Positions 7,793 to 56,091 of a DNA stretch of 64,000 bases are shown piece by piece. The stretch's first letter is position 1. Each line of letters starts with the position of its first letter. The position numbers and the translations under genes are program-made. The notes below the pieces were generated by a model, which saw nothing but the letters and a program-made list of their open reading frames with translations, was not told the origin of the DNA and did not search any database. Origin of the DNA: Planctomycetota bacterium (GTDB taxonomy: Bacteria > Planctomycetota > Phycisphaerae > Phycisphaerales > UBA1924). The stretch spans positions 124,001 to 188,000 of the forward strand of contig JAFIFX010000003.1 in NCBI GenBank assembly GCA_020831805.1, given 5' to 3'.

Positions 7793-9015
7793 GGCGCGCC
7801 TCCCGCGCTGGCGGTCAGGTCGAAGAGCGGCAGGAACATGCTGACCGCGACGAAGGCGACGAGCCCGCCGAGCACCACCATGATCAGGGGTTCGAGCAGG
7901 CTGGACAGCGCCTTGACGGTCGATTCGTTCTCTTCGTCGAGGTAATCGGCGATGTGAACGAGCACCTCGGACATGCGGCCGGTCTGCTCGCCGTTGCGGA
8001 CGGCCTGGGCCGACGACGCGATGAACAGATCGCTTTCGATGAACGCGGTGCTGACCGGATCGCCCTTGGTGACGCCGCGTTCGGCGCGGTCGAGCAGTTC
8101 CTTGAACCCGTGATGCGACACGGATCGGCGCGTCAGCCCGATCGCCTCGATCATCGGCACTTTGGCGTCGAGCAGCGTCCCGAGGATGCGGGCCACCCGA
8201 GCGGTCCCGAACGAGCGGACGATGTCCCCCACCTTCGGAGCCCGGAGCAACGCCCGTTCCAGGGTTCGCTTGCCGGGCGGCGTGCGGAGCCACCAGGCGG
8301 CCGTCCACCCGGCCACCAGCAACGCCGGCAGGGCGAGCCACCAGTACCCGATCATCAGTTCGGAGATGGCCACGAGCACCTGGGTCGAGGCGGGCAGCGG
8401 CGTGTCGAGCGTCTCGAAAAGCCCGGAAAACCGCGGCAGCACCACACCGAGCATCAGCACGAGCACCGCTAGGCAGACCATCGTCAGCAGCAGCGGGTAC
8501 ATCATCGCCGCGATCACGCTGGAACGCACATGGGCCTGGCGTCGCGTGAGCATCGCCAGGCGGTTGAGCATCTTGTCGAGCTGGCCGGACGACTCGCCGG
8601 CGGCGACAAGGGACACGAAGACCGCGTCGAAGATCTCGGGGCGGGATTCGAGCGCCTCGGAGAACGCGTCACCGTCCTCGAGGTGGCGTCGTACGCTGCC
8701 GACCACATCCCGCCATTGGTCGTTCTCGGCCTGCTTCTCCAGCGACTCGATGGCGTCCGCGATCGGCGTCCCCGTGGAGACGAGCACGGCCAGCTCCCGC
8801 GAGAACTGGGCGATCTGCTTGGGGCTGGCTTTTTTCCTGCGGGCCTTGGTCTGGCGTTTGGGCGCGGACGCCTTGTCGCCCTTGCCCTCCGCGATCGAGA
8901 CCACGAAGGTCCCCTGGCGCCGGAGCTGCTCGGTCGCCTCCTCGATGCAGGTTCCTTCGCAGACGCCCGAGACGGTCTTGCCGGCCTTGTCATACCCGGA
9001 GTAGCTGAACTTCAT
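7789..9015 (-). CDS. GspF/PilC inner-membrane platform protein
   Basis: The 408-residue protein has the usual three membrane segments: one near residue 170-200 (MYPLLLTMVCLAVLVLMLGV), one at 220-240, and a C-terminal one (IMVVLGGLVAFVAVSMFLPL). Two GspF cytoplasmic helical domains flank them, the first starting after a lysine-rich linker (about 50-65) with ISxGTPIADAIESL. GspF/PilC anchors the assembly ATPase. Its ATG overlaps the stop of the gspE gene by ATGA and it overlaps pilM at its own end. Confidence 0.92.
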   Translation of the reverse strand: MKFSYSGYDKAGKTVSGVCEGTCIEEATEQLRRQGTFVVSIAEGKGDKASAPKRQTKARRKKASPKQIAQFSRELAVLVSTGTPIADAIESLEKQAENDQWRDVVGSVRRHLEDGDAFSEALESRPEIFDAVFVSLVAAGESSGQLDKMLNRLAMLTRRQAHVRSSVIAAMMYPLLLTMVCLAVLVLMLGVVLPRFSGLFETLDTPLPASTQVLVAISELMIGYWWLALPALLVAGWTAAWWLRTPPGKRTLERALLRAPKVGDIVRSFGTARVARILGTLLDAKVPMIEAIGLTRRSVSHHGFKELLDRAERGVTKGDPVSTAFIESDLFIASSAQAVRNGEQTGRMSEVLVHIADYLDEENESTVKALSSLLEPLIMVVLGGLVAFVAVSMFLPLFDLTASAGGAP

Positions 9016-10916
9016 GCCGCCACCCCCTGGTCAGGCGTGTCGGTCTGAGCGATCTTCGGCTTGGCGTTGGCGGCCTCGGGATCCTCGTCGTTGTGGGTGA
9101 CGCGGAGGACTTCTTCGAGGCTGGTCTTCAGATCGAGGGCGAGCCGCACGCCTTCCTCGCGGAGGTTGAGCTGGCCGCGGGAGCGCAGCGCCTCACGGAG
9201 TTCGTGCGACGGGGCCTCACGGTAGATCATGCGCCGCACTTCGGGCGTGACCTCCATCGTCTCGTAGATGCCCAGACGGCCGTGGAATCCCGTGTCGTGG
9301 CAGCTTGCGCAGCCGGCCCCCTTGCGGAAGGCCCGGCCGGCCATGTGCGAGAGGCCCGCGTCGGCGAGCACCCGCTCGGACGGGTAGTACTTGGTCGAGC
9401 AGGACGCGCAGATGGTGCGGGCCAGTCGCTGAGCAACCACCCCATTGAGCGCGGCGCTGAGCAGGTACGACTCGACGCCCATGTCCACCAGCCGGGCCAC
9501 CGCGCCCGGCGCATCGTTGGTGTGCAGCGTGGCGAGCACGCCGTGCCCGGTCAGCGCGGCCTGGGTGGCGACGCGTGCGGTCTCCTCGTCACGGATCTCG
9601 CCGACCATGATGATGTCGGGGTCCTGCCGGAGGATCGACCGCAGGGTTCGGGCGAATGTCAGGCCGATGCTCTCGTGGACCTGGATCTGGTTGACCATGT
9701 CGAGCTGGTACTCGACCGGGTCCTCGACGGTCACGAGGTTCGTTTCGGGGCTGCGGAGCAGGTCGAGCGCCGAGTACAGCGTGGTGGTCTTGCCCGATCC
9801 GGTCGGGCCGGTGACCAGCACGAGCCCGTGCGGCATCTTGAGCACGCGCTTGAAGGTGCCCAGGGCCTCCTCGCGGAAGCCGAGATCCTCCATGCGGACA
9901 TGCAGGTTCTGCTTGTCGAGGATGCGGATGACGAGCTTCTCGCCCAGCAGCGTGGGGATGCTCGAGACGCGGAGGTCGATCTCGCGGCCCTCGGCCATGA
10001 TGCGGACGCGGCCCTCCTGCGGCATGCGCTTCTCGGCGATGTCCATCTTCCCGATGATCTTCACGCGCGAGACGATGGCCGAGTGCATGCCCGGCGGCGG
10101 CTTCATCAGATCGCGGAGCGTGCCGTCGATGCGGTAGCGGACCCGGGTGCCTTTCTTGTCCGGCTCGATGTGGATGTCCGACGCCTTGTCCTTGACCGCC
10201 GTCAGCAGGGCGACATTGACCAGGTTGACGATCGGTGAGCCCTCGACCATCTGGTCGAGATCCGTCGTCGGGCCCTCGTCGACGCGTTCACGCTCGACGA
10301 CCTCGACATCGCTCTCCGCCAGGCTGGTCAGGAACGCGTTGACATCCACATCCCCGCTCTGGTACTTGCGGATGTACTCGATGATGTTGGCCTCGAGGGC
10401 CAGCACCGGGCGGATCTCCATTCCCGTCAGATCACGCAGGCGGTCGATCGTCGGCAGGCTCTGCGGCTCGGCCATGGCCACGGTCAGCACGCCGTGGACA
10501 CGGAACATCGGGATCGCGAGCAGCCGCTCGGCCTCCTCGTTGCCGATGAGCGGGAGCAGGGAGGGGTCGATCAGGCCGTGACGGAGCTGCACCCCGCGAA
10601 CGCCGAGGCACTTGGCCAGCGACTGCACCAGGGTCACGCCCGAGATCATCCCCTGCTCGACCAGCATCTCGCCGAGCTTCATGCCGCTCGATCGCTGGTC
10701 CGACAGGGCCCGGGAGAGCTGGTCCTCGGAGATCAGCCCCTCGGAGAGGAGCACCTCGCCAACCATGCGCGGACGGTTCGAGCGACGCGACCGCCGGTCG
10801 TCGCGGTTGGCGCGCCGTTCCACGGGATCCTGCCGCGCGTCGGGCTCGCCGATGCGGCGGTCCGCGGGCACAAAGCCCTCCGGTTGGTCAACCCCGTTGG
10901 GTGTCGGCTCGGTCAC
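9012..10916 (-). CDS. GspE/PilB assembly ATPase with zinc tetracysteine
   Basis: This hexameric ATPase powers pseudopilus assembly. I place the start at a GTG (10916) that overlaps the STAS stop codon (GTGA), giving 634 residues; longer frames would intrude on the STAS gene. Residues about 55-190 form two MshEN-like modules (GEVLLSEGLISEDQL, GEMLVEQGMISG), a fold that can bind cyclic di-GMP. Walker A is GPTGSGKTTTLY (about 368), followed by an Asp box, Walker B and His box (IMVGEIRDEETA, ALTGHGVLATLHTNDA). The zinc motif is intact: CASC, then CASC about 37 residues later. Confidence 0.93.
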   Translation of the reverse strand: MTEPTPNGVDQPEGFVPADRRIGEPDARQDPVERRANRDDRRSRRSNRPRMVGEVLLSEGLISEDQLSRALSDQRSSGMKLGEMLVEQGMISGVTLVQSLAKCLGVRGVQLRHGLIDPSLLPLIGNEEAERLLAIPMFRVHGVLTVAMAEPQSLPTIDRLRDLTGMEIRPVLALEANIIEYIRKYQSGDVDVNAFLTSLAESDVEVVERERVDEGPTTDLDQMVEGSPIVNLVNVALLTAVKDKASDIHIEPDKKGTRVRYRIDGTLRDLMKPPPGMHSAIVSRVKIIGKMDIAEKRMPQEGRVRIMAEGREIDLRVSSIPTLLGEKLVIRILDKQNLHVRMEDLGFREEALGTFKRVLKMPHGLVLVTGPTGSGKTTTLYSALDLLRSPETNLVTVEDPVEYQLDMVNQIQVHESIGLTFARTLRSILRQDPDIIMVGEIRDEETARVATQAALTGHGVLATLHTNDAPGAVARLVDMGVESYLLSAALNGVVAQRLARTICASCSTKYYPSERVLADAGLSHMAGRAFRKGAGCASCHDTGFHGRLGIYETMEVTPEVRRMIYREAPSHELREALRSRGQLNLREEGVRLALDLKTSLEEVLRVTHNDEDPEAANAKPKIAQTDTPDQGVAA

Positions 10917-50385: not shown

Positions 50386-50457
50386 GCGGGCGTAGCTCAA
50401 TGGTAGAGCGTCAGCCTTCCAAGCTGAATGTTGCGCGTTCGAGTCGCGTCGCCCGCT
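50386..50457 (+). tRNA. tRNA-Gly (TCC), integration target
   Basis: The 72-base cloverleaf has acceptor GCGGGCG/CGCCCGC, anticodon loop CTTCCAA giving TCC and T loop TTCGAGT. Bases 50412 onward (anticodon stem to 3' end) are identical to a second copy at 55069-55114, so its 3' half comes from, or is restored by, the integrated element. Confidence 0.95.
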
Positions 50458-51872
50458 CTTTCGCACCACCCTGCACAACGCCGCTAAACCCCGCTCCAGA
50501 GCGGGGTTTTTGCGTGCGGTGCTCCGAGCGTTCAGCCGAACCGTCCTCGCGTCGTCTCGCACCGGAACCACCCTCATCCGCACCCCGAGTGCTGTGGGGA
50601 GTGCGGGCGCTGAGCTGGTCCCGCCCGTGCGTGCCCGTCGCGCGTTCAGCCTGATCCGCACCGGGCCGGATGGTCGGGAGTGCGTCCACCGCCTTGGCCA
50701 CATCCGCCAGGCCGAGCACCGTGTAGTGCGTGAGCGTGGTCCGGTAGTCGCCGTGCCGCATGACCCGCTGGGCGATCTGCGGGGCCACGCCGGCCCGGGC
50801 GAGCAGCGTCCCGAGCGTGGTCCGCAGCGCGTGCAGGTCGATCACCCGGCCGTCCTCATCGTCCGTCACGATGCGGGTCTTCACGCGCTGGCGTTTGCCC
50901 TTGCCGACCATCACCGGGCGGCCCGCCTCGTCCGTCACCGTCTCTTCGCGGGCCAGCCCGGCCCGCAGGAAGTCGTTGAGCTGCGTCCGTGAGGTCACGA
51001 CGGCCGGGAAGACCCTGGCCTTGGGCATCGCCGGAGCGGCCGTCAGGCGGGCTCTGAGGGCCTCGGCGAGCTGGGGGTGCATCGGCACCACATCGACCCG
51101 CTTGGCCTTGCCCGTGCGGATCGTGATCGTGCCATCGGCGAAGTTCACATCGGACCAGGTCAGGGCCTCCATGTCGCCGCGGCGGAGCCCGGCCAGGGCG
51201 GCCGCCAGATACCACGCCTCGCGGTCGTGTTCGCGGGCGACGGCGATCAGGCGGGCCAGCTCGTCTTCGGTCAGGGCCCGACGCACGCGCCGCCGGTCGC
51301 CCCGCTCGTCCAGCTTGCGGACCACGCGGAGCGGGTTGGAGGGCGTCCGCGAGGTCCGCACGCACCACTGCCCGAACGCCACGGCGATCTGCCTGGCGAA
51401 GTTCGCCGAGCGGGCGGAGAGCCCGTCCTCGCGCATCAGGGCCATGTGGTGCTCCAGCTTGTCTGAGGTCAGGTCCGCGAGCCGGGTGGCCTTGCTGGTC
51501 TCGAGCAACCGGGCCAGGTGGGCGGCTTTCTGATCCACATGGCGGGGGTTCTGGCCCGTCCGCCGGCAGTGCTGGATGTACCCGTCCACATGCTCGGAGA
51601 GCGGGCGCCGGGCCTCGGCCGAGTAGCGGTCCTGGTCCGGATCGATCACGCCGTCACGGCGCAGAGCGGCCCCCGAGAGCCGCTCGCGGAGGATGCGCTC
51701 GGCCGCGGCCCGGTCGGTCGTGCGGGTGTTTCGCTCCCGCCGACGGCCCTCGTGATCGAACCACGCGATGATCCACGGGCGGCCCTCGCCACGCCGGTAG
51801 ATCGACCCGGTGCCCCGGGTTCCTCAACCGCTTCGGCTTCTTCTCGGAAGCCGGCTTCTTCGCCTTCGCCAT
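50411..51872 (-). CDS. int: Tyrosine integrase, frameshifted near its N-terminus and truncated at the attachment core
   Basis: It catalyses site-specific recombination of the element. From the ATG at 51872 (GGAG upstream) the frame reads MAKAKKPASEKKPKRLRNPG, then a one-base surplus in the C run at 51813-51816 (GGGG on the coding strand) moves the next segment, TGSIYRRGEGRPWIIAWFDH, into the frame that carries the rest. Core-binding and catalytic domains follow, with Arg in LAGLRRGDMEALT, Lys in GKAKRVDV, HALRTTL, RHGDYRTTL and the Tyr codon at 50723-50725. The reading frame runs through the terminator and the 46-bp core and ends at TGA 50411-50413, whose last base lies in the tRNA outside the core. 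In the circle this codon becomes TGC and translation continues (see 54825-55070). Confidence 0.85.
50412..50457. repeat. attL core (46-bp direct repeat)
   Basis: These 46 bases equal 55069-55114 exactly and cover the tRNA-Gly 3' half. The match ends where the sequences diverge (t versus g before, ct versus tt after), marking the crossover region of the element. Confidence 0.95.
50486..50511 (+). terminator. Intrinsic terminator for tRNA-Gly, supplied by the element
   Basis: AAACCCCGCTC and GAGCGGGGTTT pair perfectly around two bases and are followed by TT on the plus strand (five T in all). It stands 29 bases after the tRNA, inside the integrase frame on the other strand. The host's own terminator was moved to 55137-55167 by integration, so the element appears to bring a replacement. 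Confidence 0.75.
50588..50612. repeat. Candidate integrase arm site, left copy
   Basis: This 25-base sequence containing GTGCTGTGGGGAGTGCGGGC is identical to 54960-54984 at the other end of the element. It lies 131 bases inside the left core and encodes SARTPHST in the integrase frame. Paired repeats on both sides of the core are typical of arm sites, but binding is unproven. Confidence 0.6.
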
Positions 51873-51937
51873 GCTGTTCTCCAACCCTTGGATGCTGAAT
51901 TATGCTACGGCGTGCGTGATCGTGCAAGCCGAAAGCG

Positions 51938-52735
51938 TCAGTTTGAGCCCGTGAGCGTGTCCGAACCGGGCGGCTGGCCGTTCGCTGGCCCGGCAATCTG
52001 AGCATCCAACCAGATGCGTTGCTCCTGGAACAGTGCAAGCCGCTGTTCCCGGTTCTGGTCCGCTGAAGCGAAGCGTTTTGTCCACGGGCGTCGGCGGTCC
52101 GCGGGATCGGCGGTCGGTTTCTGCGACGCCCGAGTAGTTCCCGCCGCCGCCGCCGCATCCTCGCCCGGCGTGGCGTCCGCTGGGCCACTCGCCGCCGGCT
52201 GCCTGGCCGCGTCGCCCATTGGATTCTTTTCTTGGATGAGCTTGGAAGAGCTTGGATCCGGTGCAGCCGGCTGCACCGTTGGCGTCGTCAGACTGCGCCC
52301 TTCGCGTCGCTGGACTGCACCGTTATCGGTGTGCCGTGCTGCACCGTTTACCGTGCAGTCCGCTGCACCCTTGCCCTTGGCCGCCGGGTGCTGATTCGGC
52401 GGATCGGGCGAGCTGAGCGATTCGAGGTCCAGCCGCCACACATTGACCCGCCCGCGTCCATTCTCGTATCGCCCACCCTTTGCCCGCTCGATCACGACCA
52501 CCCCCGTGCGTTCCAGCGCTCGCATCCGGTCTATTGCCGCGCGTCGTTTCAGCCCGAGCAGACCGGCGAGGCGATCGAACCCCATCGTGATGCGGAGGTC
52601 GTACCGGTTGAGCCCGTCGGCCGCGAAGAGCAATGTGGACCGCTCTTTCGGTGGGAGCCGAGACGCTTCCACCATCCCGCGAAGCTGTGCGTCGGTGATC
52701 TGGCAGGGTGGACGGCGGGGTTTCTGATTGCTCAT
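51938..52735 (-). CDS. Winged-helix DNA-binding protein of the element
   Basis: The ATG at 52735 overlaps the stop of the upstream gene (ATGA), giving 265 residues. The N-terminal third reads QITDAQLRGMVEASRLPPKE, FDRLAGLLGLKRRAAIDRMR and ALERTGVVVIERAKGGR, a winged helix with a GRGRVNVWRL wing. A long Ala/Pro/Ser-rich linker and a charged tail (DQNREQRLALFQEQRIWLDA) follow. It could be an initiator or regulator of the element. It is followed, after 65 bases, by int. Confidence 0.65.
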   Translation of the reverse strand: MSNQKPRRPPCQITDAQLRGMVEASRLPPKERSTLLFAADGLNRYDLRITMGFDRLAGLLGLKRRAAIDRMRALERTGVVVIERAKGGRYENGRGRVNVWRLDLESLSSPDPPNQHPAAKGKGAADCTVNGAARHTDNGAVQRREGRSLTTPTVQPAAPDPSSSKLIQEKNPMGDAARQPAASGPADATPGEDAAAAAGTTRASQKPTADPADRRRPWTKRFASADQNREQRLALFQEQRIWLDAQIAGPANGQPPGSDTLTGSN

Positions 52736-53133
52736 CCCGGCCCAGCTCCCCGGACCGCTACCCACACGACGGCCCGACACCCCGCGTCCGTGCGGCGGTG
52801 TCGGCCCGAGTCACGCACCAGGCCGAGCTTGACCAGCTCGCCGCGTCGGGGCGTGTAGGTCCGCAGCTTGATCCCGAGAGCCTTTTCGCCTTCCTCGTCC
52901 GTCGATCCGGCATTGCCGCGGGCGATCAGGTGGGCGAGCACCTGGCCGCGGTAAGTGCTCATCGCGGGTTCGATCCGCTTGGCCGCCTCGCGGGAGGTCG
53001 AGGGCGCCGACACCCGCCAGGGTGCCCGGATCGGCTTGGAGCCGCCAGGGCGGGTAGGGTGTGCCTGTGAGTCCCCGACGCCGCCCACGCCTGCACGCGG
53101 GGCCGCGTCTTCCGGTTCGGGTCGAGGTTTCAC
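52732..53133 (-). CDS. Small winged-helix protein of the element
   Basis: The start is a GTG at 53133 overlapping the previous stop (GTGA); a longer ATG frame from 53169 has a ribosome site too close to be useful. After a Pro/Arg-rich head, residues about 65-130 form a winged helix: STYRGQVLAHLIARGNAGST, DEEGEKALGIKLRTYTPRRG, ELVKLGLVRDSGRHRRTDAG and CRAVVWVAV. This style is common in phage-type regulators. No catalytic site is seen. Confidence 0.7.
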   Translation of the reverse strand: MKPRPEPEDAAPRAGVGGVGDSQAHPTRPGGSKPIRAPWRVSAPSTSREAAKRIEPAMSTYRGQVLAHLIARGNAGSTDEEGEKALGIKLRTYTPRRGELVKLGLVRDSGRHRRTDAGCRAVVWVAVRGAGPG

Positions 53134-53357
53134 CGGCGGGCCGCCTTCCCTGCCTGGTCCGCGAGCCATGCCTCCAGCTCGCGGACGGGGTAGACGACGG
53201 CCCGGCCGATCCGGGCGTGGGGCAGCTCGCCGGCGTTCGTGAGGGACCAGAGCTTTCGCTCGCCGATGCCGAGCGCCCGGGCGGCTTCCTTCGGGCGCAG
53301 GGCGAGGGCGGGGACCGGCGTGGTGCCGGCGTGGGGGATCTGAGCGGCCGTGCTCAT
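53130..53357 (-). CDS. Excisionase-like helix-turn-helix protein
   Basis: The 75-residue product begins at 53357 with AGGAGG upstream. ALRPKEAARALGIGERKLWS and GELPHARIGRAVVYPVRELE show the MerR/Xis-like helix-turn-helix of 'DNA-binding protein excisionase' families. It starts by ATGA overlap with the previous gene and ends by GTGA overlap with the next. Either this or its neighbour may be the directionality factor. Confidence 0.75.
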   Translation of the reverse strand: MSTAAQIPHAGTTPVPALALRPKEAARALGIGERKLWSLTNAGELPHARIGRAVVYPVRELEAWLADQAGKAARR

Positions 53358-53569
53358 GAGCGGGCCTCCTGCTGAGGGACGGACAAGCCCGCGCCGGAGC
53401 GGTGCTCCAGAGTCTCGCGGACGGCTTCCAGGTTGAACATGCGGCGACGGCCGACCATCAGGCACGGGATGCGCCCCGCGTCGGCTTCACGCCGGAGCCA
53501 TGCGCGAGGGACGCCGAGCCTGTGGGAAGTCGGGCCGATGGGCAGAAACTGGGGCCGGGTGCTCGTCAT
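53354..53569 (-). CDS. Second excisionase-like helix-turn-helix protein
   Basis: The 71-residue product has SHRLGVPRAWLRREADAGRI and IPCLMVGRRRMFNLEAVRET, a helix-turn-helix domain of the excisionase type. It is first in a chain of four genes joined by ATGA/GTGA overlaps that implies one transcript and translational coupling. Confidence 0.75.
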   Translation of the reverse strand: MTSTRPQFLPIGPTSHRLGVPRAWLRREADAGRIPCLMVGRRRMFNLEAVRETLEHRSGAGLSVPQQEARS

Positions 53570-53648
53570 GCCTCGAGCATCGCACGGGTTCGCGGGTCAC
53601 GACGCCGGATTCTGGTCAGATTTCCGGGCTGTTCCGCTCTGGTCCGCC

Positions 53649-54449
53649 CTATTCCTCACTGGAGAGGGCACGATCGATCATTGGTGCAAACTGTGGCCAG
53701 AGCCTGCGCACCTGGGGGACGGGGTAGTGCCAGCGATTCCCGTTCCCACGCTCGCGCTGCAGCCGGCCTTTCTCTCCCGCTTTGCGGAGCGTGTCGGGGT
53801 CGAGCTGGTCCCCCGTCTTCTTGCGGAACCACTCAGCCGATCGGAACGGCGGAGTTTCGGGGTCGGGCGTCGGCGGAGCGATGATGCCCATCCCGACCGC
53901 CATCGACGCGAGAGACTCAGGGGCCGGGGGGCTGGTTTCGATGCAGGCGTAGAGCGTGTCAAACGCTTCCCCCAGTGCGGCGGCCAGGTCCGCCGCAGCC
54001 TCGGCTTCCGCATCCAGCCGCGAGCTGGCGAGCGCATTGGGGAAACCCGCCGTGAACCCGTATGTGGTCCCCTCTTCCGCCAAGGCGGCGCACCAGGCAT
54101 CCAGCGACGCCATAGATGCCGGCACTGATTCAACGCGGCGGAACAGCCTGGCCGACCACGCCTCCGCTCCCTGCCAGCTCTCGCCGTCCGCCACGCGACC
54201 GGCGCCGTCCCGCAGAAGAGCGGCCGCGGCCGCGGTTGCCTCCCCCAGGTCGCTCAGCAGCGGTTTCATTTCGCGTCGCCACGGGACCAGCAGCGACGCA
54301 CGCACCACTTCGAATGGCGTTTGCGGGTCGCTGGCGGGGCTGACTTCCATTGCGTAGCGCAGATTCCGCAGCGTGTCGCGTAGCTGGCCCGCGGCACGCC
54401 ATGCACTGCACAGCTCCACCGCCAATCTGTGCGACCGATTCTCGGCCAT
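53649..54449 (-). CDS. Unrecognised 266-residue protein of the element
   Basis: It starts at the ATG at 54449 with GGAGG seven bases upstream. The N-terminal two thirds are Ala/Glu-rich helices (LAVELCSAWRAAGQLRDTLR, ADLAAALGEAFDTLYACIET); the C-terminus (FRSAEWFRKKTGDQLDPDTL then RHWYPVPQ-like motif RWHYPVPQVRRLWPQF) looks like a small DNA-binding or docking domain. I know no family. As the only non-regulatory gene it may be the element's cargo. It lies 80 bases upstream of the regulatory chain. Confidence 0.65.
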   Translation of the reverse strand: MAENRSHRLAVELCSAWRAAGQLRDTLRNLRYAMEVSPASDPQTPFEVVRASLLVPWRREMKPLLSDLGEATAAAAALLRDGAGRVADGESWQGAEAWSARLFRRVESVPASMASLDAWCAALAEEGTTYGFTAGFPNALASSRLDAEAEAAADLAAALGEAFDTLYACIETSPPAPESLASMAVGMGIIAPPTPDPETPPFRSAEWFRKKTGDQLDPDTLRKAGEKGRLQRERGNGNRWHYPVPQVRRLWPQFAPMIDRALSSEE

Positions 54450-54824
54450 GCCCAACCCTCCGCGGGGCCGGGCGAGGGCGTCCCCCGGGTTGGGAGGGAA
54501 CGCCGCTCGCCCGCGTTGCCGGGTCGGGGATCAGCCGACGCGGGCCCAGGTGCGATCAGGGTAGCGGGCCGGGGCGCAGGGCGCAAACAAACTCTACTGC
54601 ACATGGTTGCCTTTCGCGGCGGGGTCACCACCCCTTCACCCTTCACGGAGGACCCGAGCGCCGCCAGGCCGGCGGGTGCCCGGGCCACGGCGCGGACGGT
54701 GCTCGCGGTCGGCCAGGTGCGCACGGCCACGCCCCCACTGCTATCGGGGGGTGCCTGCGTCAGTCGCGTTTGCTGAATCACGCCGGCCGAGCTGATCCGC
54801 GGGCGGGGCCGAACGCCCGGCGGA
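54450..54824. other. Gap of 375 bases inside the element
   Basis: No confident gene. It should contain the promoter of the unknown gene at 53649 and of the int end fragment, and it includes most of the hairpin at 54792-54828. Short frames here lack family motifs and ribosome sites. Confidence 0.4.
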
Positions 54825-54828
54825 TCAG
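54792..54828 (-). terminator. Hairpin at the stop of the integrase C-terminal fragment
   Basis: CTGATCCGC pairs with GCGGATCAG and inner GGGCG with CGCCC. The stem covers the TGA that ends the stranded integrase coding segment. It lacks a T run but could end or stabilise the transcript of the full-length integrase in the circle. Confidence 0.45.
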
Positions 54829-55070
54829 TCGCCCGGCACGGACGCCCGGACCATCGCCACGATGCCGGCCTTCACCGCGTCGGGCAGCTCCGCCCACGCA
54901 TCGACCACGGCGGCCAGGCGGGCATCGGGCGGGTCCTGGTCCGCCCCGTCCGGCTCGGAAGTGCTGTGGGGAGTGCGGGCGCTGGGCGAAGTGCTGTGGG
55001 GAGTGCGGGCCTCGGCTGGGCCGTGCTCGTAAGCCCCTGTGTTTTCAGCACCTTCGGCATCGGGCCCGCA
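54825..55070 (-). CDS. Integrase C-terminal segment, stranded by integration
   Basis: Reading on the minus strand out of the right core in the integrase frame, the codon after ...FSLEG is TGC rather than TGA, and the frame stays open for 81 residues to TGA at 54825. The segment contains two copies of ARTPHSTS (10 codons apart) and the conserved-looking LAAVVDAWAELPDAVKAGIV AMVRA tail, with high G/C at third positions. Joined to 50458-51872 with the N-terminal base removed, it gives one frame of 567 codons plus stop. In the integrated state it has no start codon of its own except a TTG in the core. Confidence 0.85.
   Translation of the reverse strand, partial: CGPDAEGAENTGAYEHGPAEARTPHSTSPSARTPHSTSEPDGADQDPPDARLAAVVDAWAELPDAVKAGIVAMVRASVPGD
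54960..54984. repeat. Candidate integrase arm site, right copy 1
   Basis: Identical over 25 bases to 50588-50612 and in the same reading frame (SARTPHST). It lies 84 bases from the right core. With the next copy it forms a 30-base tandem. Confidence 0.6.
54990..55010. repeat. Candidate integrase arm site, right copy 2
   Basis: 21 of the 25 bases match the other two copies (AGTGCTGTGGGGAGTGCGGGC). It lies 58 bases from the right core, 30 bases after copy 1. Confidence 0.58.
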
Positions 55071-55114
55071 GCCTTCCAAGCTGAATGTTGCGCGTTCGAG
55101 TCGCGTCGCCCGCT
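55069..55114. repeat. attR core (46-bp direct repeat)
   Basis: A partial copy of tRNA-Gly (anticodon stem to 3' end) without the 5' half. It marks the right end of the element and the original junction with the chromosome. Confidence 0.95.
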
Positions 55115-55191: not shown

Positions 55192-56091
55192 TCAGCGACG
55201 GCGGCGGGCGCCGATCAGGCCGGCGATGCCGAGCATGGGCAGAACGCCCGGTGAGGGCACGAGGAACTCGAGGAACCGGCCGCCGCCCGAGTAGACGAGG
55301 GAGCTGGTGCCGAGACCGACATCAAAGATGTGGGCGCCGGCGCTGTTGGTCCACATGATGTTGCCGTTGCCGAGTTGGTAAACGCCACGGGCGCCGCTGG
55401 CGGCGAAGGTGCTGATCACATCACCCGTGTTGGGATCGAACCGGACGATGTTGTTCGACGAAAAGCCCGCCACAAGGATGTCGCCGTTGGAGGCATAGGC
55501 CATCTGCTCGGCGAAGTTCAGCGTGGTCGAGTTGTGGAAGGTGCCGATCGAGTTGCCGTTGATGTCGAAGTGGTGGATGTCGTCGTTGGCAGAGGAAGAC
55601 GACACGAGCAGGCCGCCCTGATAGGCGAGCACATGGAACGGGCTGGGAGCCAGTCCGACGGTGCTGAACGAACCCATGCTGTTGCCGTTGGTGTCGAACA
55701 TGACGACGGCGGGGCCGGGGGCGTCATTGTTCGTGCCGGCGTTGGTCACATACACGGTGTTGCCGACAAGGGCCATGCCGCGGATGTTGTCGAGGCCGCC
55801 GCCCGCGAACTGGCCGCCGATATTGCCCAGCAGGTTGCCGGACAGGTCCCAGCGGGAGACGCGGTCGCCGATCTGCTCGGAAACCCAGATCTCGTTTCCG
55901 ACATTGATCGCGTGGACGGGCGTGCCGGCCTGGAGACCGAAGAAGTCGCTGTTGACCACCGAGCCGTTGAAGGTGTCGAACAACACCATGCGGTTGTTGG
56001 TCGAATCGGGCATCATGATCCACTGGGCGTTCGCCTGCGCGGCCGCACCGGCGCCGACCAGAGCGGCGGCCAGAAGCACTGATTTTCTCAT
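55192..56091 (-). CDS. Secreted beta-propeller protein with exosortase-type C-terminal anchor
   Basis: The 299-residue protein has a signal peptide (MRKSVLLAAALVGAGAAAQA then NAQ), repeated propeller-like blades (for example NRMVLFDTFNGSVVNSDFFG, DRVSRWDLSGNLLGNIGGQF, DIHHFDINGNSIGTFHNSTT) and a C-terminal VPSPGVLPMLGIAGLIGARR tail, which is the VPxP-helix-Arg form of PEP-CTERM sorting signals. It is probably processed by an exosortase and placed on the cell surface. GGAG precedes the ATG. No exosortase gene is in the window. Confidence 0.82.
   Translation of the reverse strand: MRKSVLLAAALVGAGAAAQANAQWIMMPDSTNNRMVLFDTFNGSVVNSDFFGLQAGTPVHAINVGNEIWVSEQIGDRVSRWDLSGNLLGNIGGQFAGGGLDNIRGMALVGNTVYVTNAGTNNDAPGPAVVMFDTNGNSMGSFSTVGLAPSPFHVLAYQGGLLVSSSSANDDIHHFDINGNSIGTFHNSTTLNFAEQMAYASNGDILVAGFSSNNIVRFDPNTGDVISTFAASGARGVYQLGNGNIMWTNSAGAHIFDVGLGTSSLVYSGGGRFLEFLVPSPGVLPMLGIAGLIGARRRR

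Follow-up and report, generated by a model that had tools for sequence, protein, structure and literature searches.

The window analysed here is a stretch of 64,000 nt from a Planctomycetota bacterium (Phycisphaerales UBA1924), corresponding to positions 124,001-188,000 of the forward strand of contig JAFIFX010000003.1 (assembly GCA_020831805.1). It harbors a small integrated element whose attachment site is located inside the element's own integrase gene. The element is bounded by an exact direct repeat of 46 bp (50412-50457 and 55069-55114), hereafter the core, and measures 4657 bp from core to core. The element and its target, a transfer RNA (tRNA) gene, comprise the following features (window coordinates, strand, description):

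50386..50458, plus strand: tRNA-Gly(TCC), the intact target gene (attB), the 3' part of which is the core (ARAGORN; Rfam RF00005, 72.7 bits)
50411..51823, minus strand: integrase open frame of 470 codons in its integrated (trimmed) form (PF00589, E 1.6e-16)
50412..50457, no strand assigned: attL copy of the 46-bp core, read on the minus strand as integrase codons (exact repeat)
50588..50612, no strand assigned: candidate integrase arm site within the integrase frame, a 25-bp repeat common to the tail side
51824..51872, minus strand: likely integrase N-terminus, with an ATG at 51872 in a different frame (three-frame translation)
51938..52735, minus strand: replication-initiation-like protein (PHROG 270, E 1.2e-6; no match in the Pfam scan)
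53130..53357, minus strand: HTH_17 protein, excisionase-like (PF12728, E 1e-13; PHROG 66, E 1.3e-9)
54825..55070, minus strand: orphan integrase C-terminal tail, 81 codons and a stop, its phase with the integrase kept through the core (frame comparison, phase test, tail search)
54960..54984, no strand assigned: candidate arm site within the tail frame, the 25-bp partner of 50588-50612
54990..55010, no strand assigned: 21-bp second partner of 50588-50608
55069..55114, no strand assigned: attR copy of the 46-bp core, a tRNA 3' fragment (exact repeat)

The minus-strand integrase frame crosses the core to ...ATRLERATFSLEG and then meets a TGA codon (50413-50411), whose third base the core does not include. 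At the element's right end this codon is replaced by TGC, and the frame extends for 81 residues to a stop at 54825. The original prediction had described both ends in these terms, namely a core read as integrase codons with the stop completed from outside and a frame running on at the right end, and its description agrees with the exact repeat and with the direct comparison of the two ends. The called integrase open reading frame (ORF) encodes 412 aa (50411-51649, GTG start), while the frame stays open for 470 codons, to about 51823. The PF00589 region covers residues 125-310 of the 412-aa integrated frame and is whole, the core being reached approximately 100 residues further on. The orphan tail carries the conserved motif LAAVVDAWAELPDAVKAGIVAMVRAS, and its conserved portion spans about LAAVVAAWPDLPPAVRAGIVAMV.

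At loci collected with the tail, the tail frame, the integrase frame and the shared repeat (at least 13 bp within the zone) were each called separately in six frames, with phase ignored in that step. The 101 tail loci obtained comprise 39 testable ones, four with an integrase and no repeat, and 58 without an integrase in reach. Tail and integrase are in phase at 36 of the 39 testable loci, whereas one-third is expected by chance (P 1.9e-14 if the loci are independent, an assumption that holds only in part for related elements). Thus, a stop codon before the core, which would have argued against the original prediction if typical of related elements, is not what these loci display; instead, the frame is kept across the core. 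Approximately four-fifths of the cores (32/39) are situated within recognised tRNA genes of 16 kinds, including 28 read antisense and 4 read in the sense direction (L088, L236, L243, and L247); the latter extend the arrangement beyond antisense reading. The remaining seven cores have no recognised tRNA gene, and one of these (L058) overlaps a transfer-messenger RNA (tmRNA) gene. All three codon phases of the T-loop are found (19, 10, and 6 among 35 loci with the motif), and the tail stop is located 71-108 codons from the core start in 38 of 39 loci, and at 135 in the off-phase L057. The tRNA therefore does not set the frame, and each tail fits its own integrase.

Repeats adjacent to the core, which are candidate arm sites, behave differently from the core, being in phase in two of nine cases; this suggests a DNA-level constraint beside the core and a reading-frame constraint at the core. 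Such repeats of about 20-22 bp (e.g., GGCAACAAATCCGGCAACA) were observed at L045, L049, L051, L058, and L070, where their frames differ between the integrase linker and the tail linker. A frame mismatch of this kind would be expected of integrase arm sites that lie within coding DNA.

The tail is widespread and evolves like a translated protein. Used alone as a query, it gave matches, mostly short frames, in 78 of 200 relatives' genomes, and a tail profile detected it in 77 of 294 genomes sampled from the phylum, the own genome being counted in both cases. Entropies at codon positions 1, 2, and 3 of the tail are 0.866, 0.511, and 1.254 (61 distinct DNA versions), and pN/pS, the ratio of nonsynonymous to synonymous differences, is 0.41 for pairs differing by 30% or less; it is the high variability of third positions together with this ratio that points to protein-like selection. 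Five tails examined against Pfam matched no family at E ≤ 1. The own genome contains a second such element, L040 (G000:C7:213000-232900), at a tRNA-Thr(CGT) gene; it is 12.1 kb long, has core repeats of 50 and 19 bp and is in phase, and its integrase may be broken, since the frame has only 234 codons.

Uninterrupted versions of the gene also occur. Integrase, core and tail are joined in one protein in 12 of the best 120 of 1917 relatives of the L045 integrase; many others among those best 120 of 1917 end, as judged by eye, in short tRNA-derived peptides, and an exchange of tails at tRNA genes accounts for C-termini such as GLEPVTSAM, GFEPP, and PPEGLEPSTR in many of the listed relatives. With the tail part of the relative P0085 as the query, 13 proteins were matched, 12 of them with PF00589. 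Two viral contigs from IMG/VR, L097 and L098, have terminal repeats (69 and 123 bp, respectively) and encode the whole integrase-core-tail protein, and the integrase-tail frame of L098 spans the contig junction. Because of their terminal repeats we take both contigs as circles; they are small (7355 and 7437 bp). The conservation of the distal tail as part of integrases, on which the original prediction depended, is therefore seen both in the 12 relatives, where the tail is the C-terminus, and in these two contigs. A 23-bp core is present once in L097 and twice, 6970 bp apart, in its relative L131 (integrases 77.5% identical over 436 residues), which matches the expectation for the free and the integrated state. 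The genes of L097 encode the integrase, two excisionase-like helix-turn-helix proteins, a DnaB-like helicase, a prohead protease, an HNH protein, and a terminase small subunit. Other searches were less productive: P0085 had no match in plasmid records and three weak ones (24-25% identity) in phage records, a viral scan using part of the window integrase gave no confirmed hit, and viral scans based on a further two integrase alignments gave 21 and 9 rows, with 27 new loci at which the tail profiles found no tail and no terminal repeats were seen within the stretches covered.

These data bear on the possibility that the arrangement has no function, GC-rich DNA having left the frame open through the core by chance or the tail being a separate small gene. 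Long open frames are indeed frequent, as the window contains 277 ORFs of at least 80 aa, and the shared core-adjacent repeats suggest that constraint acts on the DNA level too. Nonetheless, 36 of 39 loci are in phase, the motif is conserved with third codon positions the most variable, and contiguous proteins occur naturally. We consider a chance frame or a separate small gene very improbable, mainly in view of the phase test and the contiguous proteins.

A second set of loci was assembled starting from the integrase. Alignment A1, in which the tail is present in 12 of 20 rows and from which search words were drawn in the catalytic part, retrieved 102 relatives in the scan of named genomes; 80 of these were kept and the viral scan added 4, giving 84 loci, several of which coincide with tail-led places (e.g., L104, L109, L115, and L123). 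Contig ends truncate five integrases, leaving 79 that could be assessed for their ending. The overwhelming majority of the latter (67/79) end inside an antisense tRNA gene, and none of the 79 ends inside a sense tRNA gene. Tail and repeat are both present at 10 loci, of which 9 are in phase, the exception being L101 (the same place as L057). The far-end frame also continues past the core, with a diverged ending, in L121, L131, and L143. The far-end frames of L121 (from 2125) and L143 (from 2269) are in phase with the integrase, and their endings were missed by the tail profile; since the ending of L121 is long and different, the tail may exist in several kinds. Judging by record titles, the loci belong to Phycisphaerales, Pirellulales, Gemmatales, Isosphaera, Kuenenia, and others; L129 and L134 are titled as other phyla and may be misbinned.

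The structure of P0085 was modelled with AlphaFold2. An alignment of 20 rows gave a poor model (mean predicted local distance difference test, pLDDT, 59.4), whereas 70 rows gave a mean of 81.5, and this second model was used. In it the integrase body is predicted with confidence and is followed by a disordered tether (about 387-466), within which the core-encoded residues fall; the tail helices occupy 474-485 and 488-501, with block-mean pLDDT of 81-88. The best match of the model in the PDB is lambda Int (1z1b, E 1.3e-10). P0085 is thus predicted to be a lambda-type enzyme of three domains, an N-terminal arm-binding domain among them, with a helical-hairpin tail.

Taken together, the shared core and frame, the distal orphan tail, the uninterrupted genes of relatives and of contigs with terminal repeats, and the recurrence at many tRNA genes across Planctomycetota show the architecture at the level of sequence: one gene has two C-termini, and integration chooses between them. 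Our preferred reading, to which we assign a probability of roughly 0.6, is that the attachment site lies within the element's own integrase gene, that the circle encodes the full-length enzyme with the conserved tail while the integrated copy closes with a stop and a few residues supplied by the tRNA gene and its flank, and that this exchange likely turns an integrating enzyme into one that excises or rests. The tail swap probably gives the inserted element an enzyme that behaves differently from that of the free one. In the free circle the full-length integrase carries the conserved, predicted two-helix tail; insertion puts in its place a short ending taken from tRNA-gene and flanking sequence, the catalytic domain being kept. 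The tail, encoded in the free state alone, should serve the needs of that state, chiefly integration, and would be needed for, or favor, attP × attB recombination. The trimmed enzyme could excise, given the retained catalytic domain and the excisionase-like HTH_17 protein of the element, with which it would act. Excision would then rebuild the full gene, tail included. A broader version, in which this is a hard-wired switch throughout the phylum, with tailed circle enzymes that integrate, tRNA-trimmed enzymes that only excise or rest, and gene structure that itself encodes directionality, in several diverged integrase families and at tRNA genes of at least 16 kinds, is put forward tentatively.

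The fate of the trimmed protein separates this reading from that of a strictly suicidal integrase, in which the trimmed protein is inactive and the element remains locked in until a related element brings an intact enzyme. The archaeal integrases of the Sulfolobus spindle-shaped virus (SSV) type provide a precedent, in which the fragments are inactive and superinfection brings rescue (PMC8371274), and L040 could provide the enzyme in the genome studied here. On the other hand, the catalytic domain is uncut, most of the 67 integrases (of 79) ending in tRNA genes are whole frames, and the element carries an excisionase-like gene. We regard strict suicide as rather unlikely. The variable ends of the tail, as opposed to its conserved internal motif (predicted helical), speak against another alternative, in which the tail controls the amount of integrase, e.g., through degradation or a partner signal, and not the direction of recombination. 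The model for it is the mycobacteriophage BPs, which loses a C-terminal degradation tag of its repressor on integration and the integrase of which has a proteolysis signal (PMC4557955). By the pattern used, an ssrA-like end is present in 0 of 62 orphan tail frames, and such a degron on the tail was rejected; control of stability is, in our estimate, quite improbable.

Several observations weigh against the preferred reading. The window integrase copy is itself frameshifted near 51820, as indicated by the likely N-terminal ATG (51872) sitting in a different frame. More than one-half of the tail loci (58/101) have no integrase frame in reach, many contigs ending there, and the training sequences for one of the two integrase profiles were frames already seen in phase. 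Three testable loci are off phase (L057, L232, and L243), and so is L054, one of the four without a repeat, for which an earlier wider search had given a 54-bp repeat; its inclusion lowers the strict in-phase count to 36 of 40. Inspection by eye showed a frameshift in the L057 tail relative to P0085; at L232, the repeat chosen lies away from the tRNA-like stretch, and that stretch is itself in frame on either side. In the integrase-led set, 12 of the 79 integrases, including the free form L097, end in no recognised tRNA gene, and only 13 of the 84 loci showed a tail upstream, the DNA covered extending no more than 10 kb in that direction and in many cases less. In the culturable planctomycete Blastopirellula marina DSM 3645, for example, the integrase L150 ends in an antisense tRNA-Met gene, and no tail was detected within the 10 kb covered.

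Among known systems, the lambda integrase gene is complete in both the integrated and the free state. The same holds for HK022, where the int stop is 73 bp from the junction (PMC6814406). The window integrase shares the Phage_integrase domain (PF00589) with lambda-type enzymes, to which the P0085 model is closest; unlike theirs, its tail is exchanged. Phage satellites, such as those resembling phage-inducible chromosomal islands, are likewise small elements at tRNA genes, and L097 recalls them in its prohead protease, terminase small subunit, DnaB-like helicase, and excisionase-like genes. The integrase of satellites is ordinarily complete in both states, in contrast to the present case, and no packaging gene was detected among the window-element proteins scanned (one small ORF was outside the scan). 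According to older reports, attP and the end of int overlap in certain bacterial elements.

The original prediction had likened the arrangement to SSV-type viruses and to BPs, and the likeness stands in the way these systems work. The SSV-type integrases (SSV1, pTN3, and pT26-2) are tyrosine integrases with the attachment site in their own gene, which integration alters; integration breaks it into int(N) and int(C), and truncated forms are reported inactive in vitro (PMC8371274). The window element has the attachment site inside the integrase gene as well, but here the enzyme is bacterial, its catalytic part is not separated from the N-terminal part, PF00589 being whole in the integrated frame, and only the C-terminal tail is exchanged; in this respect the comparison fails. 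The three integrases scanned against Pfam matched PF00589 and, weakly, SAM-like domains or domains of unknown function, with no match to PF16795 (Phage_integr_3) at E ≤ 1. In BPs and its relatives, attP is also inside an ORF and the prophage form lacks the C-terminal tail (PMC4557955), but the gene is that of a repressor with an ssrA-like tag, and not of an integrase with a conserved, predicted helical motif.

A 2021 review of archaeal recombinases calls self-disrupting integrases exclusively archaeal (PMC8371274). Within our partial coverage of the literature, which included few subscription papers, no case was found of attP interrupting the integrase gene of a bacterial element. The earlier remark that no description of such a switch in planctomycetes had been seen is an understatement, since the arrangement recurs across the phylum. 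Here a bacterial phylum widely practises a milder version of self-disruption, in which the catalytic domain is retained and a conserved tail exchanged. Two natural forms of one enzyme make the directionality of tyrosine integrases testable, and the integrase joined to its tail can serve as a marker for excised circles in metagenomes, as well as marking both ends of integrated elements.

Two further observations concern a related locus and the flank of the window element. L056 contains two copies of the tail on one strand (1342-1638 and 8767-9573, some 7.9 kb apart), and the integrase profile found no integrase there. The gene adjoining attR in the window (55192-56091, minus strand) encodes a protein with a C-terminus that, by eye, resembles a PEP-CTERM-type sorting signal.

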